A stretch of DNA of 32,198 nucleotides from Candidatus Kaiserbacteria bacterium (GTDB taxonomy: Bacteria; Patescibacteriota; Minisyncoccia; Phycocordibacterales; UBA918). Numbering within the stretch: position 1 is the first letter of the stretch; every line of letters starts with the position of its first letter. Location of the stretch: assembly GCA_020428795.1 (NCBI GenBank), contig JAGQME010000008.1, positions 1 through 32,198 of the forward strand. Direction: 5' to 3'. The translations under genes were made by a program, and so were the position numbers. Below, piece after piece: positions 2,876-26,800 of the stretch. A model generated the notes under the pieces. That model was not told where the DNA came from, made no database searches, and saw only the letters and a list, made by a program, of their open reading frames with translations.

Positions 2876-2970
2876 TTCAATTCCTCAGAAAAACAGAGCA
2901 GTTTGCTTCCTCCCATCGACAGACGAAAACCACTCAAAAGGAGTGGCTTTCTTTGTGTCGATGGGAGGAA
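2876..2970 (-). repeat. tRNA-Met tail: terminator hairpin and inverted copy of the tRNA 3' end
   Basis: 15 bases at 2907-2921 are the exact reverse complement of the tRNA-Met 3' end (2956-2970). Between them lies a stem of 6 bp (2930-2935/2941-2946) followed on the minus strand by TTTTC, a likely intrinsic terminator for the tRNA. The inverted copy continues further out as TTCAATTCCTC (2876-2886), separated by about 26 inserted bases (2887-2912), so the copy is broken close to the T-stem/acceptor junction. No direct copy was found on this side. Confidence 0.75.
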
Positions 2971-3029
2971 TTGAACCTCCGACCTCAACTTTATGAGTGT
3001 TGCGCTCTAACCAACTGAGCTACATCGAC
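2956..3029 (-). tRNA. tRNA-Met (anticodon CAT), elongator type
   Basis: Cloverleaf on the minus strand: acceptor GTCGATG/CATCGAC, D-arm GCTC...GAGC, anticodon arm CAACA-CTCATAA-AGTTG with anticodon CAT and an A31-A39 mismatch, T-stem GGAGG/CCTCC, discriminator A. CCA is not encoded (CAA follows). The paired 1:72 position and D-stem GCTC/GAGC fit an elongator rather than an initiator. A tRNA-Ile2 read with lysidine at the wobble position cannot be excluded by eye. Confidence 0.9.
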
Positions 3030-3774: not shown

Positions 3775-4449
3775 TCAAAACAAAATTGAATCAATAGCAC
3801 CCAACACCTGCCTTCTTAACCTCGTACCTTTTCTTACTTTTATTCTCAAGGTTCCATAGTGTGACTTTGAGTTTGAATAAAATTTTTTATTCCGAACTTT
3901 TATCAAACTGGGTTTAGTAAATTGTGACCTAGGAATTCCAGTTAGTACAGACCAATACTGCTCAATTTCACTGATTCTATTTTTGTGTAACTCGTTAACA
4001 CTCACTCTTAGGATCAATTTATCGGATGTAATATTAAAAATTTTATAGAGCCATTTACAGTAAAACAATATCATTTGGGGATCACTATTTGTAAAACCAA
4101 ATTCTTGATCACCCTTTTTATAACCTTCACCCCAGTACAATCCCAAACCAATACAATACAAATCTCGACTATTAATTACCCCGATCTTTTTTCTTCCCTC
4201 CTGTTTATCGTGCAGAATATCTAACTGTCTTTTGGCACGTAAAGTTTCTGCATAACGTAATAAAGACTCAGTGCTTTTTGATTTACTTTTTTCGGAAATT
4301 TTCTTAATCGCTAACTTAGACAACTTTATATCCCTACACCAATTACTGACCGTACTTTTGCTAACCCCTACCGTCTTTGCAATATCACCGATACTCATGC
4401 CCTTATTTCTCAATTTGATTGATTTTTCTCGTTCTTTAGCTTTTGTCAT
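3775..4449 (-). CDS. HTH protein with LAGLIDADG-like C-terminal region
   Basis: 224 residues from the ATG at 4449. Residues about 5-45 form a helix-turn-helix (IKLRNKGMSIGDIAKTVGVSKS...SNWCRDI), similar to HTH_23-type domains of resolvases and transposases. The C-terminal half has CIGLGLYWGEGYKKG, then FTNSDPQMILFYCKWLYKIF, a pattern reminiscent of a single LAGLIDADG homing-endonuclease fold with Glu in place of the usual acidic pair. The protein is very basic (Lys/Arg rich). Its promoter TATAAT lies 13 nt upstream of the ATG, and an alternative TTG at 4488 is upstream of that box. It starts 79 nt from the intron-bearing tRNA-fMet, on the opposite strand. A DNA-binding regulator is an alternative reading. 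Confidence 0.6.
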   Translation of the reverse strand: MTKAKEREKSIKLRNKGMSIGDIAKTVGVSKSTVSNWCRDIKLSKLAIKKISEKSKSKSTESLLRYAETLRAKRQLDILHDKQEGRKKIGVINSRDLYCIGLGLYWGEGYKKGDQEFGFTNSDPQMILFYCKWLYKIFNITSDKLILRVSVNELHKNRISEIEQYWSVLTGIPRSQFTKPSLIKVRNKKFYSNSKSHYGTLRIKVRKGTRLRRQVLGAIDSILF

Positions 4450-4527: not shown

Positions 4528-4845
4528 AGCGGGGTAGAGGAGAGGTACCTCGGGAGGCTCAATAGGGCTCATAAGAAAGAAATTTTTTATGGAACACTTG
4601 CCAAATTCGGTGAAACCTTTGCTTTAAGCATGGCAATACCGAGCCAAGCCCAGCCCTACTTTATAAATTACAATTTATAAAGTAGGGCTGGGAAGGTGTA
4701 GAGACTAGATGGTAGGCATCTGACTTTAGGAAACTAAAAAGATGAAGGTATAGTCCAGACCCCAAATTCATGTTTTACATGAAGCAGTGAAAACTGTAGT
4801 GGTATGCATAACCTCCAGACCCCGGTTCGATTCCGGGCCCCGCAA
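4528..4845 (+). tRNA. Initiator tRNA-fMet (CAT) interrupted by a group I intron
   Basis: The exons 4528-4559 and 4807-4845 join to a full cloverleaf. The acceptor has G2-C71 to G7-C66 paired and A1/A72 unpaired, the D-stem has A11:T24, the anticodon stem is GGAGG/CCTCC with loop CTCATAA (anticodon CAT), and the T-stem is CCCGG/CCGGG. The unpaired 1:72 position and A11:U24 are hallmarks of bacterial initiator tRNAs. Position 1 is A rather than the usual C, and the anticodon stem has A29-U41 instead of three uninterrupted G-C pairs. CCA is not encoded (CAA follows). The 3' half looks at first like a tmRNA tail, but the 5' exon settles it as a tRNA. Confidence 0.9.
4560..4806 (+). ncRNA. Group I self-splicing intron in tRNA-fMet (between U33 and C34)
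   Basis: 247 nt, no ORF. The conserved core is clear: AAATTCGGTGAAACC (P region), GGCAATACCGAGCCAAGCC (Q), GTAGAGACTAGATGG (R) and GGTATAGTCC (S). GACTA in R and TAGTC in S form P7. The layout closely follows the cyanobacterial tRNA-Leu intron core (IC3 type). P8 has a TTTAG-GAAA-CTAAA hairpin. The P9 region has TTCATG-TTTTA-CATGAA and CAGT-GAAA-ACTG. The 5' exon ends in U (4559) and the intron ends in G (4806), as group I chemistry requires. GGGCTC near the intron start is a candidate guide for a short P1, but that pairing is weak by eye. A 21-bp perfect hairpin (4649-4669/4672-4692) fills the P6 position. Confidence 0.9.
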
Positions 4846-5111
4846 CAATAACAAAATCACATCCCTTCTGGGATGTGATTTTGTTATATGTTTGCGGAGG
4901 CCAGAGAGCAAACTGCTTTGCTCTCGTCGGAATCGAACGGACGGAGTCATGTTTTTATTTATTCCTAAAATAAAAACGGACGAGACGAGCCAACGAGTTC
5001 TTATGAGCGTAAGCGAATTTGAAACTCGATGTCGATTCCGGGCCCCGCAACAAGTAAATTTCAACACAAGATAAACGGCCAGCGATCGCTGGCCGTTTAT
5101 CTTGTGTTGAA
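4827..5111 (+). repeat. tRNA-fMet tail-repeat region (direct copy, interrupted inverted copy, long hairpins)
   Basis: The last 19 tRNA bases plus CAA (4827-4848) recur exactly at 5032-5053 (22 nt, offset 205). The first copy is followed at once by a perfect 17-bp hairpin (4849-4865/4870-4886). An inverted copy of the tRNA 3' half follows in two parts (4892-4902 and 4928-4938), interrupted by a 9-bp hairpin (4904-4912/4917-4925). Next is a 10-bp hairpin (4951-4960/4968-4977) and a spacer with GAGCGTAAGCGAA (5005-5017). The second direct copy is followed by a 52-base perfect palindrome (5060-5111) abutting the stop codon of the next gene, which may act as a bidirectional terminator. Confidence 0.88.
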
Positions 5112-9807: not shown

Positions 9808-10374
9808 CTAAAATTCGGCAGTCAGTTCACGTTGTACTGCAAATAGATCACTGTCTAAGCCGGCACACTCTCGGTTATGGCCTTGTGACACTACCACTGT
9901 ACAAACCGCTCCTTTTTCACAATCAGTTTCGATTCGGCCGACCGGATAATCAGTTAGATCATAACCTGACTCGTTTATTAGTACGTGCGTAAAGGTATGC
10001 AAACAACGATCTTCTCCATTAATATTAATATTAAATTCATACTCGGCATTGTTTATAGTTATGCCTGACACTGTATCTTGATCCACCGCAGGAACACGAT
10101 TTGCCACCCCTCCACAATCAATGGTTAAACTACCAGCCGTCGGCTCTGGTGTCACCTGTGTGAAATCATCTCGCAATTCATAACGCCAATAACGGGAGCA
10201 CTCCAAACCAATATTTGCTACCTGAAATGCCACCTCAGACTCTCTCGATACAGCAGAGAGATTAAGTTGCTTAAGAGCTACACTTAGTAAAGTCAGACCA
10301 ATCGCCAAAACCACGCTCGAGATAATAATCGATAGCAAGAGAGCAAAACCTGATTGTGATGATTTAGTCGGCAT
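9808..10374 (-). CDS. PilX-like minor prepilin
   Basis: 188 residues. It has a short basic leader (MPTKSSQSG) then FALLLSIIISSVVLAIGLTLLSVAL, a class III signal with a hydrophobic helix. The position-5 glutamate of major pilins is replaced by Leu, as is common for PilX/GspK-like minor pilins, which sit at the pilus tip. Five cysteines in the C-terminal half suggest disulfides. It overlaps the preceding prepilin gene by 11 nt and is the last gene of the pilus operon. Confidence 0.75.
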   Translation of the reverse strand: MPTKSSQSGFALLLSIIISSVVLAIGLTLLSVALKQLNLSAVSRESEVAFQVANIGLECSRYWRYELRDDFTQVTPEPTAGSLTIDCGGVANRVPAVDQDTVSGITINNAEYEFNININGEDRCLHTFTHVLINESGYDLTDYPVGRIETDCEKGAVCTVVVSQGHNRECAGLDSDLFAVQRELTAEF

Positions 10375-10957
10375 AAAGATTATAAAGATACGAAGTTAGA
10401 ACTACTGTTCTGGTACCACCAAAAATATTAGCATTCCATGATACTGAAGAGGTTACCTGCACCTCTCTGTCTGTACCACTGTCAGTAATCTTGATTACTC
10501 TAGTATATATTGACGGTGTGTTGCCTGAAGCACGTGAACTAGTGTACTGTGAACGATAATTCGAATCACTGGATTTATAAAGAATACAGGGGTTACTCGC
10601 GCCATTATTACAACTAGCAACATCGTAATTAGTAGTCTCCGCATCACTTGAATTATCCCACTCAATATTGCATCCGTTTACGTTTTGACAAGCACTCAAC
10701 ACACCACTAGGCTCAGCCCAATCCCAAGCCTTTTCATCACCAAATTCTTTCAAAGCTTCTTGATTTCTAACCGCCGCTACTGACTCGATACCCTCCTGAG
10801 CTAGATAGACCGCCGTCGCTTGTTGATTTACAAACCGACCAGTCTGGATTCCTTTAGCCGCAATTGTCATCGGGCCCACAATTGATAACATCAAAATAGA
10901 CACTGCTACCAAAGCTTCAACCAACGAATATCCCTTTGTGTGTTTAAGCTTATACAT
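10364..10957 (-). CDS. PilV/GspI-like minor prepilin
   Basis: 197 residues. The leader MYKLKHTKG precedes YSLVEALVAVSILMLSIVGPMTIAAKG, a class III prepilin signal with Glu5; the EALVA...LAQEGIE pattern matches the PilV/GspI group. The remainder is a pilin-like globular domain with four cysteines. It would be cut by PilD and join the tip complex of the type IV pilus. It starts 5 nt after the previous prepilin stop. Confidence 0.8.
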   Translation of the reverse strand: MYKLKHTKGYSLVEALVAVSILMLSIVGPMTIAAKGIQTGRFVNQQATAVYLAQEGIESVAAVRNQEALKEFGDEKAWDWAEPSGVLSACQNVNGCNIEWDNSSDAETTNYDVASCNNGASNPCILYKSSDSNYRSQYTSSRASGNTPSIYTRVIKITDSGTDREVQVTSSVSWNANIFGGTRTVVLTSYLYNLYAD

Positions 10958-10962
10958 AAAAT

Positions 10963-11580
10963 TTATATATCCAAAAGTAATTGAGCCACCGTGGTCTGAA
11001 TAACAAAATCAGCTCCCAAGTCACCAGCTCCACCGGATTGACCAGTGATATAGATGGTCAGAGTGGGAGCCACTACGTCAGAAGCGACCGAAAGCCTAGC
11101 ACTACCGGTTAGAGTAAAACGCAAGTCTGTAATATCAACGAGTGGTGCCGTCACCCGTGACCAACTACCGGTGCCGAGTCTTCTCTCGATGGCCCCCACC
11201 CCATCAATCTCTGACAATCTATAAGCAATTCGGGATGAACCCTTACCAGCTGTCAAACTATTACCACCTTCATTAAAAGCAAAGAAAGTGTCACCAGCGG
11301 CGCAATCCTTCACATCATCACTGTCTGGATTGGGATTTGAATCAGCATCGTCACAATAATAATCAGAGCCGGTCCGGATATCGCGCACCATACTATCAAG
11401 AGCAAAAGTAACGTTAGTCATGACATTTTGTTGTGACTGTGATTTGGTGTTAGCGTCAATCAAGACCAACAAAGTCCCGACACTAACAGTGACCACAATA
11501 GTAAAGATAGAAAGTGATACCAAAACCTCTATCAGAGAGAAGCCTTTTGTCGAATTTTTTGTATCAAGAGAAAAATTCAT
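10963..11580 (-). CDS. PilW/GspJ-like minor prepilin
   Basis: 205 residues. The leader ends at KG, followed by FSLIEVLVSLSIFTIVVTVSVG, with Glu5 at the expected place. The longer globular domain with FALDSMVRDIRTGSDYYCDD and the C-terminal VVAPTLTIYITGQS resembles PilW/GspJ proteins. The Asp-rich loop (about residues 78-90) could bind calcium, which is inference only. It is 7 nt downstream of the GspH-like prepilin. Confidence 0.8.
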   Translation of the reverse strand: MNFSLDTKNSTKGFSLIEVLVSLSIFTIVVTVSVGTLLVLIDANTKSQSQQNVMTNVTFALDSMVRDIRTGSDYYCDDADSNPNPDSDDVKDCAAGDTFFAFNEGGNSLTAGKGSSRIAYRLSEIDGVGAIERRLGTGSWSRVTAPLVDITDLRFTLTGSARLSVASDVVAPTLTIYITGQSGGAGDLGADFVIQTTVAQLLLDI

Positions 11581-11587
11581 ATTACCT

Positions 11588-12169
11588 TTATTCTACCGTC
11601 ACTTGGCCAGAACTATAAATAATTACCTTACGATTGGAGCTCGAGTTTCGTTTGGCCTGAACAGTAATTTCTACCGAATTAAGAGAGTTGTTGGAATCAT
11701 CTTCCATAATAGCGTCAAAGTTTGGCCGTTTAAAAATGATTGAGGCTTCATTTTCGGTAACACTACCGTTTGAGGTTATTGAACTTATAATAAATCTACC
11801 ATCGAGATGTAGAGTCTCAATCTCTTCCCCAAGATCATACTTTCCATTATTACTACCAGTGTCTTGAAAAAAGATATATTCAGTGGGTTCGTCTATATCA
11901 TAAAACAATCCGTAGTTACTGGTGAAAGCATCACCAGTCCCAGGGTCTCTAGCCTGAATACTTATCGCTCGCACCTGTGTCTCACGTATATCAAGAGCAA
12001 TTTCATAGGCTTGGTTATTCAACAAAACACTACTGTCAAAAGAAGAATAACGGATCATTACAATAGCTGTAATCAAGGTCACTATTGAGATAGTGACCAA
12101 CAACTCAACCAAAGAGAAACCAGCCGTCGCTGGTGATTTTTTGTCATTATAAGTAATTTTAAAAAACAT
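11588..12169 (-). CDS. GspH/FimT-like minor prepilin
   Basis: 193 residues from the ATG at 12169, which is 2 nt after the pilD stop; a TTG further upstream (12187) would overlap pilD. The leader ends in TAG, followed by FSLVELLVTISIVTLITAIVMIRY, a prepilin signal with Glu5. The globular part has the RETQVRAISIQ and IYSSGQVT elements seen in GspH/FimT pseudopilins. It would be part of the pilus tip complex. Confidence 0.78.
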   Translation of the reverse strand: MFFKITYNDKKSPATAGFSLVELLVTISIVTLITAIVMIRYSSFDSSVLLNNQAYEIALDIRETQVRAISIQARDPGTGDAFTSNYGLFYDIDEPTEYIFFQDTGSNNGKYDLGEEIETLHLDGRFIISSITSNGSVTENEASIIFKRPNFDAIMEDDSNNSLNSVEITVQAKRNSSSNRKVIIYSSGQVTVE

Positions 12170-12171
12170 GA

Positions 12172-13008
12172 TTACAACAAAAACCAATCCAGCGCCTCTA
12201 GTACATCAAATGAAAAAGCGTACACTATAATAAAACTTATGATGATAAAAGGCGCAAAGGGAACTTCACTTTTAATTGTAAAATGAATCTGTCTAATTGG
12301 TAAGTGTGGTTGTCCCCTCTTATATAGGTAGAGAGCCCCCATAATCCCCAGACTAATGATACTGCCAACCCAAAAAGATCCCACCACAAAAGTAAAAGCT
12401 CCACTAGGACCGAGTAAAGTAGCTAGCGGAAAAGCCAGTTTGGCATCACCAAGACCAATCCAACGTCCCTTAGACACCACCCATAAACCGCCAAAGAAGA
12501 CAAAGGCTCCGACCCCACTGAGTAGATGACTAAGCCAATCAGCTTCCCCATTTTGCCAAAAATTATACAAGAGTATTAAAACAACCAATACAGTTGTCAT
12601 AGTCACCATTAGATTGGGTATGATGAGGTGATAATAATCATAAAAAAAAGTTATCACCAAAACAGCCACCAAGACCAGAGACAAAACAACAATTATCGGA
12701 TCAGAAAAGGCTTGGTAAATAATGACAAATAAACTAGCGGTCAAAAGCTCACACCATAAGTACCGAATGGGTACATAAGAAGAACAAGAACGACAACGAC
12801 CGCTTTGCACCAAATAAGAGACCAAAGGAATCAACTCATACCAGTGGAGAATTTTACCGCAAGACATACAGTGCGACTGGCCATTTAGAGATCGGCCGGT
12901 GTGTAGCCGATAAATTACTACGTTGAGAAAACTACCAATGATAAGACCAAAGACAAACACCACTGAATATTGGTACCAAAGGGGCAGTAAAGATAAATCC
13001 AGTATCAT
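12172..13008 (-). CDS. pilD: Prepilin peptidase / N-methyltransferase
   Basis: 278 residues from the ATG at 13008. A multi-pass membrane aspartyl protease that removes the leader of the prepilins and methylates the new N-terminus. FGLIIGSFLNVVIYRL and the cytoplasmic zinc module CMSCGK...CRSCSS are typical. The two catalytic aspartates sit in FDYYHLIIPN and GLGDAKLAFPL. It lies between the major pilin and the minor prepilins, so enzyme and substrates are co-transcribed. Confidence 0.95.
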   Translation of the reverse strand: MILDLSLLPLWYQYSVVFVFGLIIGSFLNVVIYRLHTGRSLNGQSHCMSCGKILHWYELIPLVSYLVQSGRCRSCSSYVPIRYLWCELLTASLFVIIYQAFSDPIIVVLSLVLVAVLVITFFYDYYHLIIPNLMVTMTTVLVVLILLYNFWQNGEADWLSHLLSGVGAFVFFGGLWVVSKGRWIGLGDAKLAFPLATLLGPSGAFTFVVGSFWVGSIISLGIMGALYLYKRGQPHLPIRQIHFTIKSEVPFAPFIIISFIIVYAFSFDVLEALDWFLL

Positions 13009-13027
13009 TTTATTATTTATTCCCAAA

Positions 13028-13432
13028 CTAAGAAGCTGGACAGGTACTGGTAGTTGGTTCTGTTATCCTACCACCAGCAAAACCTTCATTATCAACACAA
13101 AAATAACTACCATCTGATAATACTGATGAAATACGAAATTCACTGCCATTTGAACTACAATCAAATGTACCACCAGCATTATTAATACTATTTTCTGCCG
13201 ATAAAAGTTCTGGCTGAATACACAAATTTGTATAACTTAAACTATTAGAATCATAATATAGTTCAGCTTGTGCTCTCATGTTATTTATATTAGAACGAAT
13301 ATTTGCATCCGCCCCTTTTTCGCGAGCCGTATTTAGAGAAGCAAGCACCACAGAGGCCAAAATACCAATAATGGCGATTACCACCAAGAGTTCGATCAAA
13401 GTGAAACCTCGATTTTGAATTTTTGTAAACAT
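13028..13432 (-). CDS. Major type IV pilin
   Basis: 134 residues. The leader MFTKIQNRG is followed by FTLIELLVVIAIIGILASVVLASLNTAREKG, the canonical N-methyl-helix with Glu5. The short globular domain has four cysteines, two of them near the end (YFCVDNEG...TSTCPAS), forming the D-region-like loop. It is the best candidate for the main fibre subunit: it has its own promoter region upstream and is separated from pilC by a terminator. Confidence 0.92.
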   Translation of the reverse strand: MFTKIQNRGFTLIELLVVIAIIGILASVVLASLNTAREKGADANIRSNINNMRAQAELYYDSNSLSYTNLCIQPELLSAENSINNAGGTFDCSSNGSEFRISSVLSDGSYFCVDNEGFAGGRITEPTTSTCPAS

Positions 13433-13753
13433 AATTTTGTTAATTTGTGTTAATTATTTTGTCCAGACATCAGCTGATGTGTCTCGACTACGTTGTACAC
13501 ATACTTGTCTGTGTATCTATACATTATACGGTCTTTATTTGGCTATATTCTGTCATCTGTGGACAATGTCCCAAATGAATGTTGTCTTCGACAGACTTTA
13601 ATTGGATCTGAAAAGAAACTTCGATATTTTATAAAGCCTAGAATTGAGTGAAGTTCGAGGGAGGTGAGAAACAAATACTCAAGTGGGTGAATACCCAGCG
13701 AGAGTATTTTTTCGATGGCTACCGAAGAAATTTACCAATTTTAAGCCATTCAT
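13433..13753 (-). promoter_or_regulatory. Pilin upstream region: pilC terminator, promoter and palindromic leader
   Basis: 321 bases with no gene. Near pilC a nested hairpin (AATACTC 13674-13680 with GAGTATT 13702-13708, inner TGGGT/ACCCA) is flanked by T-runs on both strands, so it can terminate in either direction. A minus-strand -10 TATAAT (13523-13528) would give a pilin mRNA with a leader of about 85 nt. The leader contains the 14-base palindrome ACATCAGCTGATGT (13467-13480). GGACAATGTCC near 13561 is another short palindrome. This layout allows the pilin to be made in excess over the machinery. Confidence 0.65.
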
Positions 13754-14962
13754 TTAGATGGCGGAGGTTAGATTATAAATCGGCATCAAAACCGAAGCCA
13801 ACAAAACCCCTACCCCCAGACCAAGTAACACGATCATCACTGGCTCAATCAAGCCGATCAAAGTATCGACAGCGTTATCTACCTCCCTTCGATAGAAGGT
13901 AGCTAGAGTATTTAAAATCTCCGGTAAATTACCCGTTTCTTCACCCACCTTAGCCATCTGTGATAATACTCCTGGCACCTCTGGGTATTCGGATATAGTA
14001 TCAGCGAACGAACGTCCACCCTTTACCTCAAGTAGCGTAAATTCCATAATTTCCTTATAAACTCGATTATCTACCACATCAGCCGTAACCTCCAAAGCCT
14101 GCACCATCGAAATACCGCTCCCCACCATGGTTGAGAGGTTGTCACAGATGCGGGTTAGGTATAGCTTACGATTTAAATCACCAAGATAAGGGATCGATAT
14201 CTTCATCTCATCGTAGGCTCTTCTCCCTACATCGGTTCGCAAAAAGCGCCATAAGAAAAATCCACCCACTGACAAAACCAAGAATATGGCGCCGATGTAA
14301 TTTACAAAGAAAGAAGACAGTCCAATAACAATCTTGGTGTAAATAGGAAGCTCCTGACCAGAGTCAGTCAAAATCTGAGCAATACGAGGAATCACCAAGG
14401 TCAACATCACTCCCATTACAATCAAGAAAGTACCGACCACAAAAGCCGGATAGACCATGGCGTTTTTGGCCTTAGACGTAATCTGATACGAACGATCAAG
14501 ATAGTCGGCCAAATAACCAAAAGATTTTTCTAGCGAACCGGTCTCTTCACCAGAACGCACCATGTTTACATAAAAAGATGAAAAGATATCTGGATGACTA
14601 GACAAAGCCCTTGAGATAGAGCTACCAGCCTGTAGTTCATCAGAGATTGAATTTAGAACCGTTCTTAATTGGGGATTTTCAGCTTCAGAGCCCAACAGAC
14701 GAAAAACTCGCAAAGCCGATACCTGAGCTTGAAATAAAGTAGATATTTGTCTCGATAAAATAACTATCTCTTTGTTTGAAACTGATTGAAACCAAGTTAT
14801 TTCAAAATTTAAAATGGAGGATTTTTGCTCCACCGCATCAATCGAAATGATGGTGTAGCCTCTTTTTTGGACAGTGATAATAGCCGCATCGACATTGGTA
14901 GCTTCAACCGTACCTTCACGGGAAGTGTTATGTTCGTCTATGGCTTTATATGTAAAGAGCAT
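13754..14962 (-). CDS. pilC: Type IV pilus inner-membrane platform protein
   Basis: 402 residues, the usual length for PilC/GspF. Two T2SSF domains (about 70-195 and 270-395), each followed by hydrophobic segments; motifs VRSGEETGSLEKSF and AKVGEETGNLPEIL are the two repeats of the family's GE-x-TG motif. It links the ATPases PilB and PilT to the growing pilus. It starts 21 nt after pilT and ends before a terminator. Confidence 0.96.
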   Translation of the reverse strand: MLFTYKAIDEHNTSREGTVEATNVDAAIITVQKRGYTIISIDAVEQKSSILNFEITWFQSVSNKEIVILSRQISTLFQAQVSALRVFRLLGSEAENPQLRTVLNSISDELQAGSSISRALSSHPDIFSSFYVNMVRSGEETGSLEKSFGYLADYLDRSYQITSKAKNAMVYPAFVVGTFLIVMGVMLTLVIPRIAQILTDSGQELPIYTKIVIGLSSFFVNYIGAIFLVLSVGGFFLWRFLRTDVGRRAYDEMKISIPYLGDLNRKLYLTRICDNLSTMVGSGISMVQALEVTADVVDNRVYKEIMEFTLLEVKGGRSFADTISEYPEVPGVLSQMAKVGEETGNLPEILNTLATFYRREVDNAVDTLIGLIEPVMIVLLGLGVGVLLASVLMPIYNLTSAI

Positions 14963-14983
14963 ACCTATATAGTACCATTCTTA

Positions 14984-16054
14984 TTACATTATTCTTTCCA
15001 GACCCTTTGGATTAAGTGAATAGGCAAAAGCATTTTCCACGGTTATTTCTCCTCGCTTGACCAACTCTGCCAAGGATCGGTTCATATCTATCATACCCTG
15101 TTCCAATCCGGTCTCAATAAGAGTTTGGATTTCGTGGGTTCTTCTTTCACGAATTAGGTTAGAAACGGCACTGTTGTTTATCAGAAGTTCGTAAGCTGGA
15201 ACCAAACCACCGGAGATACACGGAATCAATCTCTGGGAGAATATGCCAGCCAAAGAACCAGCCAACTGAACTCGAATCTGATCTTGCTGACCAGCTGGGA
15301 AGGAGTCGATGATACGGTCGATAGTCTGAGCAGCGTTGTTGGTGTGCAGGGTTGATAAGACTAAGTGACCAGTCTCCGCCGCTGTTACAGCGGTGGCGAT
15401 TGTTTCATTATTTCTCATCTCACCCACCAAAATCACGTCAACGTCCTGACGAAAGACAGAGTTGAGAGCTACCTGAAAACTAGCGGTATCAACTCCGATT
15501 TCTCTCTGTACAATCAGAGATTTTTTTGGTGTATACAAATACTCCACCGGATCTTCAATGGTTACAATGTGTTCAGCTCGATTTTGGTTAATGTATTCAA
15601 CCATAGAAGCCAAAGTAGTAGACTTACCTTGACCAACCGGACCCACACACAGAAAGAAACCTTGCGGACGTTGCACAAAACTTTCTAGAATCGGTGGCAA
15701 CTTCAATTCCTCCATCGAACGAATCTCGTTTGGAATCAAACGCAAAGCAATAGACATTGAACTACTTTCGTAAAAACCGTTACCACGAAAACGAATACCA
15801 TCAGCATGGGGGTAAGAAAAGTCTGCTTCGCGAGTGGTGACGAAACTCTTGTATTTTGATTCGCTCATTAAAACTTTGGCAAAACCCTGCATGTCGTCGT
15901 TGGTTAAGATTGGTTTCTTCATCAGTGGTATCAAAGAACCAGCCACTCTCACAATCGGGTGGGAACCAACTGACAAGTGAATATCTGAACCATTTTCAGA
16001 TACCACAATGTCTACCAAGTCACTTAATTCACGTTTATAGTCTACTGATGCCAT
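14984..16054 (-). CDS. pilT: Pilus retraction ATPase
   Basis: 356 residues. Walker A is GPVGQGKS (138-145), with Val and Gln in place of the common Thr and Ser, and Walker B is VDVILVGEMRN. The Asp box (IVTIEDPVEYLY) and His box (TGHLVLSTLHT) are intact, as is the AGIFSQRL segment. PilT powers retraction, needed for twitching and DNA uptake. TAAAAT (16061-16066) lies exactly 6 nt before the ATG, so besides read-through it may have its own leaderless transcript. Confidence 0.95.
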   Translation of the reverse strand: MASVDYKRELSDLVDIVVSENGSDIHLSVGSHPIVRVAGSLIPLMKKPILTNDDMQGFAKVLMSESKYKSFVTTREADFSYPHADGIRFRGNGFYESSSMSIALRLIPNEIRSMEELKLPPILESFVQRPQGFFLCVGPVGQGKSTTLASMVEYINQNRAEHIVTIEDPVEYLYTPKKSLIVQREIGVDTASFQVALNSVFRQDVDVILVGEMRNNETIATAVTAAETGHLVLSTLHTNNAAQTIDRIIDSFPAGQQDQIRVQLAGSLAGIFSQRLIPCISGGLVPAYELLINNSAVSNLIRERRTHEIQTLIETGLEQGMIDMNRSLAELVKRGEITVENAFAYSLNPKGLERIM

Positions 16055-16071
16055 AATAATATTTTAAAAAA

Positions 16072-16443
16072 TTAACTTACTGCTATGCCTTGTAAAATTG
16101 TATGTACCTTCTCTACCACTTCGCTTGGCACATACTCCGCTTTTACTATATAACCCACCGCCCCCGCTTTCTCCGCATCATCTTTATCAAAAGATTCGCC
16201 TTGATTTGATAAAACGATACAAGGTAACTTTGGGTGTTTTTCTTTAATCTTGCGCAAAAGGTCCAGACCCGACATTTGTGGCATCACCATATCAGTCACC
16301 ACCACATCAAAGGTTTCCTCTTCAAGAAGACTTAAAGCCTCCATTCCCGTAGAGACAGGAGTTGGCTTATCACCTCGTTCAGTAAACTTAATCGCATACA
16401 TGTCACGCAAAAACACGTCATCATCCAACAGCAGAATCTTCAT
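16072..16443 (-). CDS. Single-domain response regulator in the pilus operon
   Basis: 123 residues, a receiver (REC) domain only. The acidic pocket is LLDDDVF (about 4-10), the phospho-acceptor Asp is in VVVTDMVMPQMSG (about residue 51), the switch Ser is in CIVLSNQG, and the Lys is in GYIVKAEY. There is no output domain, as in CheY and PilG/PilH. It sits between pilB and pilT, so it probably tunes extension or retraction. No histidine kinase is in the window. TATAAT (16450-16455), inside the end of pilB, is exactly 6 nt before the ATG. Confidence 0.9.
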   Translation of the reverse strand: MKILLLDDDVFLRDMYAIKFTERGDKPTPVSTGMEALSLLEEETFDVVVTDMVMPQMSGLDLLRKIKEKHPKLPCIVLSNQGESFDKDDAEKAGAVGYIVKAEYVPSEVVEKVHTILQGIAVS

Positions 16444-16445
16444 GA

Positions 16446-18305
16446 CTACATTATAGCGCCATCGACACTTTGGTTGGCTCGGTTATCGACAGTTGAATCA
16501 TTTAAACTTCCTTCGGATCCCACCACTTCGGCCTCATCGTCCGCCTTATCAAGTTCAAAGCCCATATCCAAACCAACCTTGGTACCAAAGACATTCATTT
16601 CTTCGTACGGAATAGTATGATCCAGAGCTTTGATGATGGCATCTTGATGCATGGTCATGAAACCATGTTTTCTGGCTGCCACCTCCATCTCTTCCTCAGA
16701 CCCACCCCGCAAAATCAACTCTTGAATATCAGGAGTGATTTCAAATGTCTCCGTCACCGCCACTCTTCCCTTGGTTCCAGCTGAACAACCCGGAGTAGGA
16801 TCGGGGTGCAACATAGTATCTGAATCTGGAATTCTAGAACGATAGCGCTCTGGTAGATTAGAAAACGAATCATCAATCATATCTTTAACCACCCCTTTCA
16901 CTTCCATAACCTTTGTACTACCAGGACATAGTCGACGGGCCAGACGTTGAGCAATAGCTAATTTAAGAGTTGGCGCAATCAAATACGGATCAACTCCCAT
17001 GTCTATCAATCTCGGAATCACACCGATTGAATTGTTGGTGTGAATAGTAGAAAGTACCAAGTGACCGGTCAAAGCGGCTTGAATGGCCAGTTGAGCTGTC
17101 TCCTTATCACGAATCTCTCCAACCATAATAATGTCAGGGTCTTGTCTAAGAGCACTACGTAGACCAGCTGCAAAGGTATAACCAATCTCCGGCCTAACCT
17201 GTGACTGACTAACATTCTTGATGTTGTACTCAACCGGATCTTCAAGTGAAAGCACGTTCTTTGTCTCCTTATCGACTTCGTCCATCATCGAATACAAAGT
17301 GGTGGACTTACCAGAACCAGTTGGTCCAGAAATCAATATGATGCCGTAAGGTTCCTTAATCACTCTTCTAATTACTTCTAGGTTGTAACTTGAAATACCG
17401 GTGTCTTCTAAATTATTAACTCCTCGGATATTATCCAAAATACGCATTACCACCTTTTCACCATGACTGGTTGGTAAAACAGATACACGGAAATCAATTT
17501 TTCGACCGTCGAAAGTGGCCGAAAAACGTCCGTCTTGAGGCTTTCTTTTTTCGTCAAGACGGACCGAGGCTAAGATTTTTACCCTAGCCACCACTGCGTC
17601 GCGGACATTTTTCGGCAATTCCAAACTTTTTTGTAACTCACCATCAACTCGAAACCTAACCACCACCTTCTCTTCATTTGGCTCAATGTGAATATCAGAA
17701 GCTGCCCCATCAACGGCATAACGCAAAATTGTAGCCACAATTTTGGTTACCGGAGCATCTTCTTTTAGGTTATCGATATTCTCAGTCTGTGTTTTACTTT
17801 TGGATTCTTTGGCTTTGGCGGTAATCTCGTTTTCTAGCTCATCCTCAAGTGAACCAAGCGCTTCTCCGACTTCACCACTTAATGATTCGTAGAAATTAAG
17901 AGCTTTGACAATATCAGAAGCCAGCATATACACCAGCTTATAGGGAATATTGTGCTTGGTGGAGATAAAGTTTAAAACTTCACGGACCTGAAGGTTATCA
18001 GGATCATTTGAAGCTACTATCAAAACTCCATCCTCAATCTTGAAAGGAACAATTCTGTAATATCTAGCTGATTCTTCTGATACATAAGATAGAATCTCCT
18101 CAGATAATTCGGCATCCTTTTCCAGAGTCATCGCTGGTGTACCGTAATACTCAGAAAAAATTTCCCTTATTACATCTTCACTGATACCGGCTTGAATCAT
18201 CGCCTCCTCGTAAGACACACCTTCTGTCTGTACCAATTTAGAAATAGCACCAACTACATCATCAGTGACTACACCTTTGTTTTTAAGTAATGCTAGCACA
18301 TCCAT
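16446..18305 (-). CDS. pilB: Pilus extension ATPase
   Basis: 619 residues. The N-terminal MshEN-like region (about 1-150, with YYGTPAMTLEKD) in other bacteria often binds c-di-GMP. The charged linker is residues 155-185. The ATPase has Walker A GPTGSGKS (327-334), the Asp box SLEDPVEY, Walker B DIIMVGEIRD (391-400) and His box LSTIHT. The C-terminal metal-binding region is reduced, with isolated cysteines (RRLCPG, PGCSAG). It drives pilus assembly. It follows the PilP-like gene by 7 nt. Confidence 0.96.
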   Translation of the reverse strand: MDVLALLKNKGVVTDDVVGAISKLVQTEGVSYEEAMIQAGISEDVIREIFSEYYGTPAMTLEKDAELSEEILSYVSEESARYYRIVPFKIEDGVLIVASNDPDNLQVREVLNFISTKHNIPYKLVYMLASDIVKALNFYESLSGEVGEALGSLEDELENEITAKAKESKSKTQTENIDNLKEDAPVTKIVATILRYAVDGAASDIHIEPNEEKVVVRFRVDGELQKSLELPKNVRDAVVARVKILASVRLDEKRKPQDGRFSATFDGRKIDFRVSVLPTSHGEKVVMRILDNIRGVNNLEDTGISSYNLEVIRRVIKEPYGIILISGPTGSGKSTTLYSMMDEVDKETKNVLSLEDPVEYNIKNVSQSQVRPEIGYTFAAGLRSALRQDPDIIMVGEIRDKETAQLAIQAALTGHLVLSTIHTNNSIGVIPRLIDMGVDPYLIAPTLKLAIAQRLARRLCPGSTKVMEVKGVVKDMIDDSFSNLPERYRSRIPDSDTMLHPDPTPGCSAGTKGRVAVTETFEITPDIQELILRGGSEEEMEVAARKHGFMTMHQDAIIKALDHTIPYEEMNVFGTKVGLDMGFELDKADDEAEVVGSEGSLNDSTVDNRANQSVDGAIM

Positions 18306-18312
18306 AATTGTG

Positions 18313-18606
18313 CTAATTAGTTACATCAAATGGATTCTGTCGACCGATTGGAACCGGAACAATCTGCTTCCTAACTTCCTTTAGACTTCTAAAGCGAGCG
18401 TCATTAAATAATGAATCATCAAGTTCAATCGCCTTTAGCTCACCCAACCGACTAAGAAACTCCGCCGCTTCAATAGAGGCTTGACTGGTACCTGAGACAG
18501 AAGTACCAGTCAAAACTGAATCTTGTTGACTATAGAAATAGTAACCAATGGCACCTAATACTATGATACCAAGTAGAGCCACTAGATTTTGTAACGTTGA
18601 AGACAT
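18313..18606 (-). CDS. Small membrane-anchored protein, PilP-like
   Basis: 97 residues. It has one membrane segment (about 8-24), then a short soluble part ending in PIGRQNPFDVTN. The GRxNPF ending recalls the conserved GR-x-PF segment of PilP, which bridges the PilN/PilO ring and the secretin. Its place after the PilO-like gene and before pilB supports the reading. No beta-domain of full-length PilP is present, which fits an organism without an outer membrane. Confidence 0.6.
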   Translation of the reverse strand: MSSTLQNLVALLGIIVLGAIGYYFYSQQDSVLTGTSVSGTSQASIEAAEFLSRLGELKAIELDDSLFNDARFRSLKEVRKQIVPVPIGRQNPFDVTN

Positions 18607-18611
18607 AGTGA

Positions 18612-19220
18612 TTATTGATTACTTGATAAAGCGTAAGTTTTTAATATAAGTTCAAACTCAATCTCATCAGGGTTGGCACCAACATCAAATTGTTTGGCTT
18701 GCTCGGCGTCACTACCAAAACTCAGATTAGTGATCTCCAAAATATAGGAGGTGGACTCTAGATCCCTAAGGAAACCGATAAATCCTTGGTAGTCAGATAT
18801 CATTGACAATTCGAAAGTCTGAGAGACAAATTTGTTGGCAGTAACGGCTTGTTCATCATAATAGTCATCAAAATCAACATCAGGGTTTGGTAAAATCACC
18901 TCACCAGCTGTCATATCTACTACCTTACCGCCGTTTTTCTCGACCAAAATCTGGACATCATCCATCACTGCAAAAGGTTCAATCTTTGATGGTAAAAATG
19001 TCTCTAAGGCTTTGATGTCGGCGTTACTAAACTCACTCTCTCTTAACAATAGTTGCTGTAATCTAGTGTTGAATTGATTGGCTTTTTCGGTCGCATCGGC
19101 ATACTCATAAATCTCATCCTGCACTACTCGAATATTGGCGAAGGTCGGTCGAATATAGCTAACAATAATAACCACCGAAATGATGATGAGAGCGACTTGA
19201 GTTACAGCTGTATTTCTCAT
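18612..19220 (-). CDS. PilO-like pilus assembly protein
   Basis: 202 residues. One N-terminal membrane helix (about 8-25) is followed by a coiled-coil (VVQDEIYEYADATEKANQF) and a ferredoxin-like domain (FELSMISDYQGFIGFLRDLESTSYILEITNLSF), the pattern of PilO. It would pair with the PilN-like protein to form the inner-membrane alignment complex. It is 13 nt after the PilN-like gene and 5 nt before the PilP-like gene. Confidence 0.75.
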   Translation of the reverse strand: MRNTAVTQVALIIISVVIIVSYIRPTFANIRVVQDEIYEYADATEKANQFNTRLQQLLLRESEFSNADIKALETFLPSKIEPFAVMDDVQILVEKNGGKVVDMTAGEVILPNPDVDFDDYYDEQAVTANKFVSQTFELSMISDYQGFIGFLRDLESTSYILEITNLSFGSDAEQAKQFDVGANPDEIEFELILKTYALSSNQ

Positions 19221-19233
19221 AAAAAATTATTGA

Positions 19234-19986
19234 TTATATTTCTTCACCATTATTAACCTCTTCAGAAGAATTGACTGATGAAGTGGCGGCGTCCATCTCT
19301 AAATCATTTAGCTCATCGGTAGCTTCCATAGAAGTTTCTTCAGTAAGCTCTTCTTCGACCAAAACACCATCTGGCTGATATCTTAAATCAGCCACCTTAA
19401 ATCCTCCTGACAAAGCAAAAGCAATCGCCTGACCTTCACTTCTGGCGACATCGTCACCGATCTGACTATCTCTTGAGGTGTAGCTTTGATTGATAATTCC
19501 AGCTTGACGTAAGGTTTCGTTGGCAGCAAACACGTCCCTTTGGAACCTAGCGTCATTTAGGTTTCGGGCCAAAGCATTTACTACGACACTAATGGCTCCA
19601 AATTCGGTTCGGTCATATTCGATACCAGTTAGTTGTACGGTGTTTAAAGTCGATATTTCAAGCGCCTTAAAAATATCAGCCACTGAAACATGGGTATCTA
19701 ATACTATGTTGGCATTGTTTATTCTTAATTCGAGTTCTTTCAACCTTTCTAGGTCACTGGCATTAAAGGCATTTCGCTCATTAGCTAATTGTTCTTTTTG
19801 TGCATCTAACTGTGAATTGACCGTTACATCAAAAAAGAAAGTTCCAGCCGAAGCGATTAGAGTACCGAAGAACAAAACCAAACTAAGATATGTAAAAACA
19901 TAAATCTTTCGTACACCGCGAGGTCGGATGACACTCTTGGTAGGAGATTTTGGAATAAACGAAGAAGGACCTTGAGGACTTATCAT
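19234..19986 (-). CDS. PilN-like pilus assembly protein
   Basis: 250 residues. There is a basic cytoplasmic N-terminus of about 28 residues, one membrane helix (about 30-52), a coiled-coil (SQLDAQKEQLANERNAF region), then a PilN-like domain with STLNTVQLTGIEYDRTEF and VNALARNLNDARFQRDV. The C-terminal tail is strongly acidic. The N-terminus would bind PilM as in the PilM-PilN pair. TATAAT (19995-20000) is 8 nt before the ATG. Confidence 0.75.
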   Translation of the reverse strand: MISPQGPSSFIPKSPTKSVIRPRGVRKIYVFTYLSLVLFFGTLIASAGTFFFDVTVNSQLDAQKEQLANERNAFNASDLERLKELELRINNANIVLDTHVSVADIFKALEISTLNTVQLTGIEYDRTEFGAISVVVNALARNLNDARFQRDVFAANETLRQAGIINQSYTSRDSQIGDDVARSEGQAIAFALSGGFKVADLRYQPDGVLVEEELTEETSMEATDELNDLEMDAATSSVNSSEEVNNGEEI

Positions 19987-20043
19987 ACAAAGACATTATA
20001 CTTCTATTATTGGCTGGGGTACTGATTGTCCTGTGGACAGGTT

Positions 20044-21123
20044 TTAATTTTCAAAAGAGCGAAGAGCTCCACCAAGCGCCACTGTAAATGAAGGGGCTAT
20101 TTCTTGCAGTCTAGATTCCATAAAAGCTGGATAGGCTACCTTAGAAAAAGCGTTGGCTCTCTCAACAGTTCGATCTAACATATAACCAGAAAAAGGAACC
20201 ATCTCTCCAAAACTAGCTGAACCGCCAGTCAAAATTACTCGCTCAACTTTCTCCCCCACCTTCATTTCATTTTGAGTCAAAACTCTTTTGAATTCCTGCA
20301 AAGGACGTTCAAACGTACTAATGACAGCCTTCTTAATATCCAGACTATTCTCCATATCAGGAGAAAAATTTCGTTTAGCATTTTCTGCTGCTTCGTGAGA
20401 TAGACCGGTTAATTCCATTATTCTGTCTGTAGCCTGTGAACCACCAATTCTAACTCGGTGGATTTTTCTTAACATACCTTGATGAATAATGTACATCTTA
20501 GAGGTCTCAGCTCCCAAGTCCAGAATCGCCACAGCCCTATCTTTTGGTTTGGACAAGGCTCTCACAGCACTAAATAATTCACTTTCCGCTGGCTGCACAA
20601 ACTTCTGAACCGATTGCATTACTGAGGTCATTTCTGAATAGGGATCATTTTGGACAGCAACGACTAATATTTCTCGCACGTTATCTGGCACATTCCCCAA
20701 CGGTGGTAATTCCGTCCAGTCCAAAGTCACGTCAGCCAGCGGGATTGGGATATATTTTCTGGCCTCTACCCTAACCCTCGGTCCGATGTCTTCCTCCGGC
20801 TTGGCTGTCATCGACATAATGGTTACAAAACTAGAGGATAGAGGCATGGACAATAAGCCTGATTCGGCACTCACACCAGACTCATTGATAACGTCCGTCA
20901 AAGCTTGAGTCTTTTTCTTCTCATCTAATTTTACCGGCTTACCTAATTCAGAATCGGCGTATGGTCCTAACTGTATCTCACCATAGGTTTTTAGGACAAC
21001 CAAATCTTTCCTTTTCTCTAATTCCACCACCTTAATAGAAGAACTACCAAAATCAATACCAACGACATTGTTTGGAGTAACATTTTTTTTATGACCAGAC
21101 AGTAAACTGGTTAGGTTGAACAT
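20044..21123 (-). CDS. pilM: Type IV pilus assembly ATPase, actin-like
   Basis: 359 residues from the ATG at 21123. Actin/FtsA-like fold: phosphate-1 GIDFGSSSIKVVEL, phosphate-2 VAILDLGAETSKMYI, adenosine motif VILTGGSASFGEM. PilM is cytoplasmic and docks on the PilN N-terminus. An earlier in-frame ATG (21186) overlaps comF, and the TATTAT box (21131-21136) lies 7 nt before 21123, so the shorter, probably leaderless form is preferred. It is the first gene of the pilus cluster. Confidence 0.93.
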   Translation of the reverse strand: MFNLTSLLSGHKKNVTPNNVVGIDFGSSSIKVVELEKRKDLVVLKTYGEIQLGPYADSELGKPVKLDEKKKTQALTDVINESGVSAESGLLSMPLSSSFVTIMSMTAKPEEDIGPRVRVEARKYIPIPLADVTLDWTELPPLGNVPDNVREILVVAVQNDPYSEMTSVMQSVQKFVQPAESELFSAVRALSKPKDRAVAILDLGAETSKMYIIHQGMLRKIHRVRIGGSQATDRIMELTGLSHEAAENAKRNFSPDMENSLDIKKAVISTFERPLQEFKRVLTQNEMKVGEKVERVILTGGSASFGEMVPFSGYMLDRTVERANAFSKVAYPAFMESRLQEIAPSFTVALGGALRSFEN

Positions 21124-21129
21124 AACACC

Positions 21130-21170
21130 TATAATAGTATCATTACTTTTGAGCAAAGTAAGGTTTTGAT
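21130..21170. promoter_or_regulatory. Overlapping divergent promoter between pilM and comF
   Basis: Plus-strand TATAAT (21130-21135) and minus-strand TATTAT (21131-21136) occupy the same bases, a symmetric -10. The comF side has a leader of about 29 nt with AAGG 7 nt before its ATG. The pilM side is leaderless by spacing. Confidence 0.65.
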
Positions 21171-21776
21171 ATGAACTTTTCAACAATAATTAATTTTATT
21201 TTTCCCCCTTCTTACGATGAGAAAACTCTTAAGGCTTGTTCTGACAAAAAATTTTTAGATTATTATCAACCACAGACAATAAATAACGTCATTACTCTAT
21301 TACCTTTCACTGAACCAAGTGTAAAAGCAGCCATACATTTAACCAAATGGCACGCCAAGTCAAGAGCTATAAAATTACTTGGTATGATTCTGGCTAAAAA
21401 CTTAGCCGGTTATGAAAAAGAGACTGTTATCATTCCAATTCCACTGTCAAAAAAGCGCTTTCACGAACGTGGTTATAATCAGGTTGATTTGATTATCAAA
21501 AGCGCCCTCGAGCAAGGTTTGGAATTAGATTACCAAAAAAATATTTTAAGTAGGTGTAAAAATACCAAACCACAAACTTCATTAAAAAGATCAGACCGGA
21601 CCCAAAACATCATTGGAGCCTTTTCTTGCTCCAGCACAAAAGGACAATATCTAACTGGTCGGTCAGTAATTATCATTGATGATGTGATGACCACTGGTTC
21701 TACACTTAAGGAGGCAGAAGCTTCGCTTCTGCCTCACCACCCCTCCTCCATCACCACTCTAGCTTTGGCTCATTAA
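21171..21776 (+). CDS. comF: ComF-like phosphoribosyltransferase-fold protein
   Basis: 201 residues. ComF family: the PRTase domain with IPIPLSKKRFHERGYNQVD and the PRPP loop VIIIDDVMTTGSTLKE. ComF is needed for DNA uptake in naturally competent bacteria. The N-terminal zinc ribbon (paired CxxC) of full-length ComF is absent; only one Cys remains in the first 60 residues. An in-frame 10-bp hairpin (21711-21720/21726-21735) encodes EAEASLLPH just after the PRPP loop. Divergent from pilM, with a shared promoter, which supports a joint role in DNA uptake. Confidence 0.88.
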   Translation: MNFSTIINFIFPPSYDEKTLKACSDKKFLDYYQPQTINNVITLLPFTEPSVKAAIHLTKWHAKSRAIKLLGMILAKNLAGYEKETVIIPIPLSKKRFHERGYNQVDLIIKSALEQGLELDYQKNILSRCKNTKPQTSLKRSDRTQNIIGAFSCSSTKGQYLTGRSVIIIDDVMTTGSTLKEAEASLLPHHPSSITTLALAH

Positions 21777-23880: not shown

Positions 23881-26800
23881 TTAGTTACCTCTTATTAACT
23901 TAAGTTTTTCTTGTAACACACTAATCTGTGCCAAGAGTTGTTGTATCTGGGACAAAATCTGGTTATGACGATCGCTAGAGACAGTGGTCTCTGGTCGGGT
24001 AAAGTTTTCAGCTACCCAGCCTGAGACACCATCAGCAAATTCAACTTTGATCCAAGTGTGGCCACCTTTTTGAATTGGTGTATCGGTAGACTTGATACCT
24101 AAGGTACCGTTTGGAATAACTCGGACAAGATTACCATTAGGAGTAAGGCGAACATTAAGATTATCGGTAGTTCGGATACGATTATGTGAACTAGTGTTCA
24201 CAGAAGTGTTGTTGGTTGTCGTATTTGATTTTGAACGATCAGAACCTCCACCACCACTACGACTACGTGCTTCAGCCTTGGCCTCTGCCTGTGCTTTTGA
24301 GGTAAGTTCTGGAGTATCGTCTGATTTATGAGTAAAGGTGATAGTAGTTGGATCTGAGTAAACGCCACCAGAAACAGTGTAAAGAGTGTATGTGTATTTT
24401 TTATTATCTTTAGCTGTCTCGTCAGTATAGGTGGTAACATCAGAGTCCAAGGTAGCTAGTGGTTTATCACTAGTCTTGGCGGTCGCATTACCGTTGCGAC
24501 GAATAACAACTATTTCGTCCACATTATCATCAGTCAGAGCATCCCACTCCAGAATAATCGAACCAGAACGGGCGGTTAGATTACTCACCTTCTGTGGTTT
24601 ACCAATAGTACGGAAGGAATCAACGCTGGTGGTGTCACTATTACCAGCCACATCGGTGGCGGTGAGTGCAAAGTAATACGTAGTCTTATTGGAGAGTCCC
24701 GTTAAGGTGAAGGTGTGAGTGGTAGTGAGGTCGGTGTTGGCAACACTATTGTTTAAGTTATTGCGGTTAGTACCGAAACGTAGAACTGAAGTAGCTGGTT
24801 CGTCGGTCTCAAAGGTGATGACCTGAGTAATTGGGTCGTTGCTAGTTGTTACATTATCGATGAAGGTAATCTCTGGTGCTGTTGTATCAACTGGTGGTGT
24901 AGTGACGTTAGAAACAGTGATAGTAATACTATCAGTATCAGTGTTGCCAGCACCATCAGTAGCCAACGCCGTAATAGTGTACACACCATTACTTAAGGTC
25001 GTAGTATCGAGACCGGTGTCATAAGGAGCGCTTGTGTCGGTACTAAGGGTGTTGCCATCAAGACTAAACCGCACTGAAGCCACTCCCGTGGTACTCTGAC
25101 CACTAGCACTTGGGTCATTAGCATCGGCAGTAATCGTAATTACTTCTTCAACTGTGGCGCCGTTACTTGGACTAGTAATAGTAACTGAAGGATCAGTAGT
25201 ATCTGGAGCAGTAAGCGTAGTGAAGGTCATATCCTGACTGGCCGCAGCGTTGCCAGAAGCGTCACGTGAACTAACTTGGAAGTGATAAGTGGTATCTGGA
25301 GCCAGGCCAGCAAGTGTTTCGCTGTGGCTGGTACTGACTGTACTTGTTTCACCGGTAGTATTGCCATAGGAATTAGTGGTACCGTACAAAACTTCACTGG
25401 TAGCTAGTTCATCTGTACTCCAACTTATAGTAGCACTACTCTGTCCAATGCCAGAGACTGTTATAGAACTCAAAGTCGGTGCAGTCACATCACCATTTGG
25501 GGTAGCGTCACAAGCATCACCCACCCCATCACCATCGGTATCTGTCTGATCCGGATTCACAGTATTTGGACAGTTGTCTGTAGAATCTGGAACATTGTCA
25601 CCATCGGTGTCTTGCGGCGGATAAGTACAAGAGCCATCGTCTTGAGTAGCGGACGGATTGTAATTTGAGGCGGCCGGATCGGTACAGCCGAGGACTGGTG
25701 TCGGAGTATTGTACAGTGTAAGGAATTGTTCAGCTACCCAACCATCGACACCACTATCGAAATCAACTGGAATCCAGATATACCCATCGGCGCTAGCCGG
25801 AGAGACATTAAGAACAGTACCGACTGCACCGGCTGGTTGCGTACCAAGGAGAGAACCGGAGAGTCCGTATGGATCACGAACGTTAAGTATGTCGGTAGTC
25901 TCCACTCTTGATCCTGCCGGAAAATTCGAAGTAGTACCACTACCCCCGTATTCGACAGCTCCGATATCGACGGCACTACCTTGTGGACGATTGGTGCCGT
26001 AATAATCTAGAGTTGGTGCCAGCGTGGCTGAACCAGCGTCTATAGCAGTTGAGTCACTTTGTAGACGGAAATTATGATTGGCGGCATCGATGAAGTGAGG
26101 ATCGGTTGTTAGGTTGTGGTCAACCACTGGATTCGGACCAACATAAGAAAGCGCAATATCCGGTGAACTAGCATTCGCATATGCGATATTGTTACGGATT
26201 GTGATATTTTCTGCTTCAGGATGGTAAATGATAATACCCTTGTGGCCATTGTTATACAGTGTGTTGTTTACAATCCGAACATCTTTAATGGTTCCAGTCA
26301 CATCAGGGTGATTGTATATTTCGATACCCTCAAGTTCCATACCAGTCACGATGTTGTTGTATATATCAATGTCACGAACATGTCCCCAACCTTCGGTCGA
26401 AATAGCAATACCACCCCGATTTGAATCATGTATGTAGTTATCGTGAATCTTTATATTTTGGACCACTGGTGCCTCATACTCACCATAACCATTGGCACCA
26501 CCACGACCACCATCAAGATAGATACCTGACCGGGCGACGTTAGTCAGTTCATTACCGACAATCTCACCGTTGTTGGCACCTTCTTTCACATCGATACCAA
26601 GACCGTTACCACCGATTGGTTCACCACCATTAATGACGAGATTGTTCTTAATGACGAAATCAACAACACCGTTACCGACGGTGATATCCTCGTTGTAGCC
26701 ACCATTAACTGCCATCTCAACTCGGTTACCTTCGACGAGCACGTTGCGAAGTCCTTCATAGTTGTAGACCGTTGGATCATCACCCCAAGCCACACCCCAG

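Follow-up and report, generated by a model that had tools for sequence, protein, structure and literature searches.

The only initiator tRNA gene found in a Candidatus Kaiserbacteria genome has a group I intron in its anticodon loop

How does a cell start its proteins if its initiator tRNA gene is split by an intron directly before the anticodon? The question is raised by a locus in contig JAGQME010000008.1 of a Candidatus Kaiserbacteria genome (contig C43 of the 44 in our numbering), analysed here as a window of 32,198 nucleotides. The initial annotation, which was made from the sequence alone, interpreted 4528-4845 as an initiator tRNA gene with a group I intron and pointed out that initiation would depend on splicing if no second copy existed. 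We consider it highly probable (about 0.93) that a mobile group I intron, now without an ORF, interrupts the anticodon loop of a single initiator tRNA gene and that splicing yields a normal initiator tRNA.

The interrupted gene

Positions 4528-4845 of the forward strand hold an initiator tRNA gene in two exons, with a group I intron between them:

4528-4559, forward strand: 5' exon, initiator tRNA positions 1-33, identical to the intact gene of congeners through U33
4560-4806, forward strand: group I intron, 247 nt, no ORF (76 bits in Rfam, full P1-P9, covariation)
4807-4845, forward strand: 3' exon, initiator tRNA C34-A73 (fold of the spliced exons, pattern search in the family, comparison with congeners)
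4849-4888, forward strand: hairpin and T-run right after the tRNA (AACAAAATCACATCCC TTCT GGGATGTGATTTTGTT), a probable terminator (sequence; not flagged by the scan)

By counting, position 1 of the tRNA is at 4528 and the discriminator base A73 at 4845; CCA is absent from the encoded 3' end. The joined exons fold into a cloverleaf of -33.1 kcal/mol and are identical to intact initiator genes of congeners (for example, L043, L044 and L046), which places the intron between U33 and C34, directly before the anticodon, as initially proposed. Most of the initiator features claimed for the exons are present, namely the 1:72 mismatch (A1/A72), the A11:U24 pair and the CAU anticodon; of the signature of three G:C pairs at 29-31:39-41, two pairs are present and the third is replaced by A29:U41. 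The latter pair is found in the intact initiator genes of the genus too and is, on this comparison, a trait of the lineage. ARAGORN in default mode misses the gene, because 247 nt are inserted in the anticodon loop.

A promoter-like site and the probable terminator hairpin flank the interrupted gene, and a hairpin with a T-run also follows the intronless initiator genes of relatives. The genes upstream and downstream are the usual neighbours of initiator genes in the genus.

Several other features of the window may be recorded here. After the probable terminator, positions 4885-5055 form a highly structured element of about 170 nt (RNA fold z -5.3). Part of the tRNA T-arm recurs in it in inverted orientation (GGAATCGAAC), and the tRNA 3' end is repeated where the element ends (CGATTCCGGGCCCCGCAACA). 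Comparable elements are located after the intronless initiator genes at L033, L047, L050, L052 and L058; this is possibly a small mobile element targeted to tRNA ends, or else an RNA. Downstream 24-nt matches at two contig ends do not represent a dispersed repeat, since contigs C7 and C44 overlap there. Farther away are a type IV pilus / type II secretion cluster at 9808-21186 (pilM, T2SSE, T2SSF, prepilin peptidase and pseudopilins) and, at 23881-29184, a surface-type protein of 1767 aa in which fibronectin III, metallophosphatase, beta-helix and SH3 domains are combined.

Structure and conservation of the ribozyme

Group I introns of bacterial tRNA genes usually belong to subgroup IC3. The limits of the intron were set by the group I rule, U before the intron and G at its end; the exon ends fit, as the initial annotation had stated, with U4559 as the last base of the 5' exon and G4806 as the last base of the intron, and the empty sites of congeners agree. 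The Rfam model RF00028 matches positions 4550-4778 over its full length (model positions 1-253) with 76 bits and an E-value of 8e-18, the gathering score being 50. The structural elements are as follows:

4556-4569, forward strand: P1, 5' exon GGCU plus C1 with the IGS GGGCU; splice-site pair U4559-G4566 (structure, 22-sequence alignment)
4597-4603, forward strand: P3, 5' strand, partner 4710-4716 (four of six counted pairs change on both sides)
4607-4642, forward strand: P4-P5 (P4 4607-4611/4638-4642), elements P and Q (structure, covariation)
4643-4697, forward strand: P6 (4643-4645/4695-4697) and P6a (4649-4667/4674-4692, 19 bp) (structure, covariation)
4703-4707, forward strand: P7, 5' strand (element R), the guanosine-binding helix, partner 4751-4755 (element S) (five pairs invariant in 22/22)
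4717-4744, forward strand: P8 with a GAAA-capped extension (five of five counted pairs covary)
4760-4806, forward strand: P9 region (P9a, P9b) and terminal omega-G at 4806 (structure, covariation)

The P, Q, R and S elements, together with the P3-P8 and P4-P6 parts of the core, all form in the window intron, and a P1-P9 structure drawn by hand, P3/P7 pseudoknot included, contains zero mismatched pairs; the core was thus rightly called clear. The precursor fold is more stable than shuffles by 6.2 standard deviations. To assess covariation, 22 homologous introns of CPR bacteria and of other phyla were aligned by sequence only and compared with 500 shuffles. Of the cells, 95.2% are paired compared with 84.6% in shuffles, and 133 cells are changed on both sides compared with 43, with no shuffle as high by either count; sliding the partners by one column lowers pairing to 44-46%. 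The splice-site U-G pair is invariant in all 22 introns, as is P7, and P3 and P8 covary. Pairing is less well conserved in outer P1 (82.7% of cells), the exceptions coming mostly from one CPR subgroup. The full-length Rfam match and covariation above every one of the 500 shuffles bear out the assignment to group I, and the ribozyme core is, as far as the alignment can tell, under structural constraint.

By analogy with the family, we infer that the intron self-splices in the cell. The precursor would be transcribed and the intron would fold into P1-P9; an exogenous G bound at P7 would attack after U33, which is held in the U-G pair of P1. U33 would then attack after the terminal G4806, and its joining to C34 would yield a normal initiator tRNA. 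Splicing was reportedly shown for the tRNA-fMet intron of cyanobacteria, going by the title of the 1994 work on it.

Two insertion sites in one genus

A pattern search of the 49 genomes of the family found a single copy of the initiator 3' half in 39; of these, 36 have an intact gene, whereas three, namely the genome of the window (G000), G032 and G042, have one that is interrupted at the same position. Exact empty sites are seen in congeners with intronless initiator genes. The three introns are homologous: the core is conserved, P2, P5, P6, P8 and P9 are altered, and the peripheral helices contain compensatory changes. Further interrupted initiator genes, in G018, G027 and G044, came from a second search, with the 5' exon, and from searching the genus with Rfam. 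The intron in these genomes is different; it is inserted three nucleotides downstream, between U36 and A37, and likewise ends in G. In all, 38 genomes of the genus comprise 26 with an intact gene, six with a gene interrupted at one of the two sites and six that are not scorable, so that the window-type intron is patchy, with three occurrences in 32 scorable genomes. The intron would be near-neutral phenotypically, and gained and lost within the genus.

The second group I intron, after U36 (CAU|AA), is about 260-300 nt long and is represented by loci L264, L265 and L266. The genus also has group I introns in tRNA-Asp, tRNA-Asn and 16S/23S rRNA genes (L267, L268, L272, L273, L276, L278, L279, L274 and L275).

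The same site across bacteria

A group I intron in an initiator tRNA is a known arrangement, reported in 1994 for the tRNA-fMet of cyanobacteria (Synechocystis PCC 6803 and Gloeobacter; Biniszkiewicz et al. 1994, as described in PMC3610870 and PMC8450103). The tRNAscan-SE 2.0 paper names group I introns as the reason why fMet or Ile2 was not predicted for 36 bacterial genomes (PMC8450103); the window is a similar case, in which the intron hides the initiator gene from tRNA finders. CPR are not named where that paper deals with fMet and Ile2 introns, and the statement on CPR tRNA introns in PMC8172020 does not name the tRNAs; in the literature on CPR tRNA introns we found passing mention only.

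We scanned 84,980 species genomes with a pattern and obtained at least 113 stretches. A locus was taken as verified if its 5' exon was that of an initiator, with stems that are complementary, and if its intron resembled that of the window (nhmmer E <1e-5). At least 89 further loci were verified, with introns of 193-695 nt exactly at U33|C34. The insertion point, which the initial annotation implied to be unusual, is therefore a recurrent site. To go by record titles, the matches listed include Cyanobacteria, Nitrospirota, Omnitrophota, Bacteroidota, Chloroflexota, Acidobacteriota, Planctomycetota, Elusimicrobiota and many CPR groups. The presence of initiator introns in some cyanobacteria, mentioned in the initial annotation, is reflected in the cyanobacterial loci found here, which have the intron at U33|C34 and a core and 3' end homologous to those of the window; it is on these loci that the shared site rests.

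The usual form is a small ORF-less intron. Fourteen introns are longer than 500 nt, and most of these contain a reading frame of about 150 aa, all of one family; both of those tested gave a match to PF11645, and one from CPR gave a match to I-Ssp6803I (PDB 2OST, E 1e-51). Gene and enzyme family agree with those described for the cyanobacterial intron (PMC1995217 and PMC3610870). The Synechocystis intron is 655 nt long and contains the I-Ssp6803I gene (PMC1995217), whereas the window intron has 247 nt and no ORF. Introns with I-Ssp6803I-type enzymes (PD-(D/E)XK, PF11645, PDDEXK_5) have the insertion site and the 3' part of the ribozyme in common with the window intron and occur in other CPR genomes as well (L077 and L227), but the window copy lacks the endonuclease gene. 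There is no ORF of 80 aa or more within 4560-4806, and a gene of about 150 aa cannot fit, because the intron is only 247 nt long. Past mobility may have relied on an I-Ssp6803I-type enzyme, lost from the window copy or supplied elsewhere, or alternatively on a protein encoded in the flank (see below).

The three introns from the genus group together (100/92) in a tree built from 76 introns, separate from the lineage of the cyanobacterial tRNA-fMet intron; little is resolved above this level. CPR introns are scattered over several places, which fits repeated lateral gain. The closest intron outside the genus among the matches listed is L177 (nhmmer E 2e-28), which interrupts a Met(CAU) tRNA. 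The contig, of 3.7 kb, was binned as Nanoarchaeota (record title, Nanoarchaeota archaeon); either it is misbinned or the intron has been transferred into an archaeon. Viral contigs L184-L215, with 32 pattern matches to an interrupted site, were rejected as carriers of the intron: most have no initiator 5' exon, and they have one 3' half in common. In many of them the tRNA 3' half, from CATAACC, directly follows unrelated sequence, which suggests that a Met tRNA gene is used for prophage attachment, at sites within its anticodon loop.

Is there another initiator tRNA gene?

The genome of the window has 855,644 bases in 44 contigs and is rated 99.2% complete; its gene content and its relatives point to the CPR/Patescibacteria, bacteria of ultra-small size. 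A genome-wide census with the Rfam tRNA model and ARAGORN found about 30 tRNAs, and no intact initiator gene in the assembly, so that the "only copy" proviso of the initial annotation stands at the level of the assembly. The other Met(CAU) gene, at 2955-3029, is of the elongator type. tRNA-Ile2(CAU) was not seen among these tRNAs, as is reported for a few other bacteria, and AUA is read by tRNA-Ile(UAU), located at G000:C2:19241-19313 (L006). The same census did not find tRNAs for Asn, Cys and Lys-UUU; the assembly therefore has gaps.

We also searched 381 CPR genomes, drawn evenly from the phylum, for interrupted and intact genes. Ten have an intron at U33|C34 of the initiator tRNA, most of them confirmed by Rfam, in line with the initial remark that tRNA introns occur in CPR; the pattern search found no intact initiator in any of the ten. 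Splicing must work in such genomes, unless all ten hide a second gene. Splicing is thus almost certainly needed in the cell of the window, where the start of every protein probably depends on it. In nine other CPR genomes, a matching intron is found in an elongator-type tRNA-Met (most confirmed by Rfam); at the CPR loci L228-L234 and L240, elongator tRNA-Met has a group I intron whose insertion point is homologous to U33|C34.

Neither methionyl-tRNA formyltransferase nor peptide deformylase was found in the genome of the window. The two genes are neighbours in nearly all congeners and are both missing also in G012 and G026; a single assembly gap per genome could explain this. If the loss were real, the name "fMet" would be wrong.

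Could the gene instead be dead, its intron no longer spliced and its work done by an intact initiator copy hidden in a gap of the assembly or by the elongator tRNA-Met? The 44 contigs and the several tRNAs that were not found leave room for such a gap. The exons, however, are perfect and identical to those of intact genes, the ribozyme core appears constrained, the gene lies between a promoter-like site and a terminator hairpin, and ten of ten interrupted CPR genomes lack an intact initiator; we regard a dead gene as very improbable. The patchiness of the intron within the genus might also be taken as a sign of contamination or of a chimera, with the intron assembled in from another organism. 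This is hardly credible and is already refuted by two other genomes of the genus with the same intron, in diverged form, at the same position; the three form a supported clade, and the surrounding genes are those normally found next to the initiator gene. A splicing intron in the resident initiator gene remains the preferred reading.

A LAGLIDADG-like ORF in the 5' flank

A divergently oriented reading frame adjoins the interrupted gene:

3775-4449, reverse strand: HTH and LAGLIDADG-like ORF, a candidate free-standing homing endonuclease (HTH_38, I-DmoI profile match, model, neighbours)

The ORF was listed from TTG 4488; homologues begin at M14, which corresponds to 4449, and this start is about 80 bp from the tRNA. 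Pfam and NCBIfam recognize only the N-terminal HTH (HTH_38). A profile built from 11 relatives matches the LAGLIDADG enzyme I-DmoI with an E-value of 2.1e-4. The AlphaFold model (pLDDT 83.7) aligns with I-DmoI at a middling Z of 6.1 (2.6 A over 83 residues) and with I-CvuI at Z 5.2; a Foldseek search with the model gave no match under 0.001. The protein may be a free-standing homing endonuclease, as predicted from the profile and the model. LAGLIDADG enzymes are also found with group I introns in CPR hosts in the insertion sequences of 16S/23S rRNA genes (PMC11270868), but there the ORF is inside the intron of an rRNA gene, whereas in the window it is outside the intron of a tRNA gene.

The two closest relatives in the genus (61%) adjoin the interrupted initiator genes of G018 and G027, at 92-100 bp from the intron. 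Such an ORF lies within 500 bp of three of six interrupted initiator loci and of none of the 26 intact ones, and there are four ORF-intron pairs within 500 bp in the genus versus 0.15 expected from random placement. These counts and the resemblance to I-DmoI and I-CvuI would agree with a two-part system, in which the flanking protein cuts intronless initiator genes and repair copies the intron together with its flank (collaborative homing), so that ORF and tRNA intron travel together; this would add to the splicing reading rather than replace it. We hold such homing to be a tentative proposal and on balance an unlikely one. The adjoining introns differ, at U33|C34 in the window and at U36|A37 in G018 and G027; the introns of G032, G042 and G044 have no such ORF; the co-occurrences are three only; a Z of 6 is middling and Foldseek returned nothing under its threshold. 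The ORF family is multi-copy, is also found beside elongator tRNA-Met (L267 and L280) and may simply live near tRNAs; if both the family and the introns tend to lie close to tRNA genes, part of their co-occurrence would be accounted for. Somewhat more doubtful again is the broader idea that the putative endonuclease in the 5' flank spreads ORF-less introns at both U33|C34 and U36|A37, with all initiation resting on a passenger ribozyme.

Implications

What might be less expected than the arrangement itself is the breadth of the U33|C34 site, the use of two sites in one genus and the flanking LAGLIDADG-like ORF, which offers a testable route for the spread of ORF-less tRNA introns. A "missing initiator tRNA" in a CPR genome is a reason to check for introns, as tRNA finders miss them. 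In the cell of the window, initiation of every protein very probably waits on one ribozyme. The situation is known for some cyanobacteria, and it is met again at no fewer than 89 further sampled loci, from Cyanobacteria to Nitrospirota, Omnitrophota, Bacteroidota, Chloroflexota and CPR.
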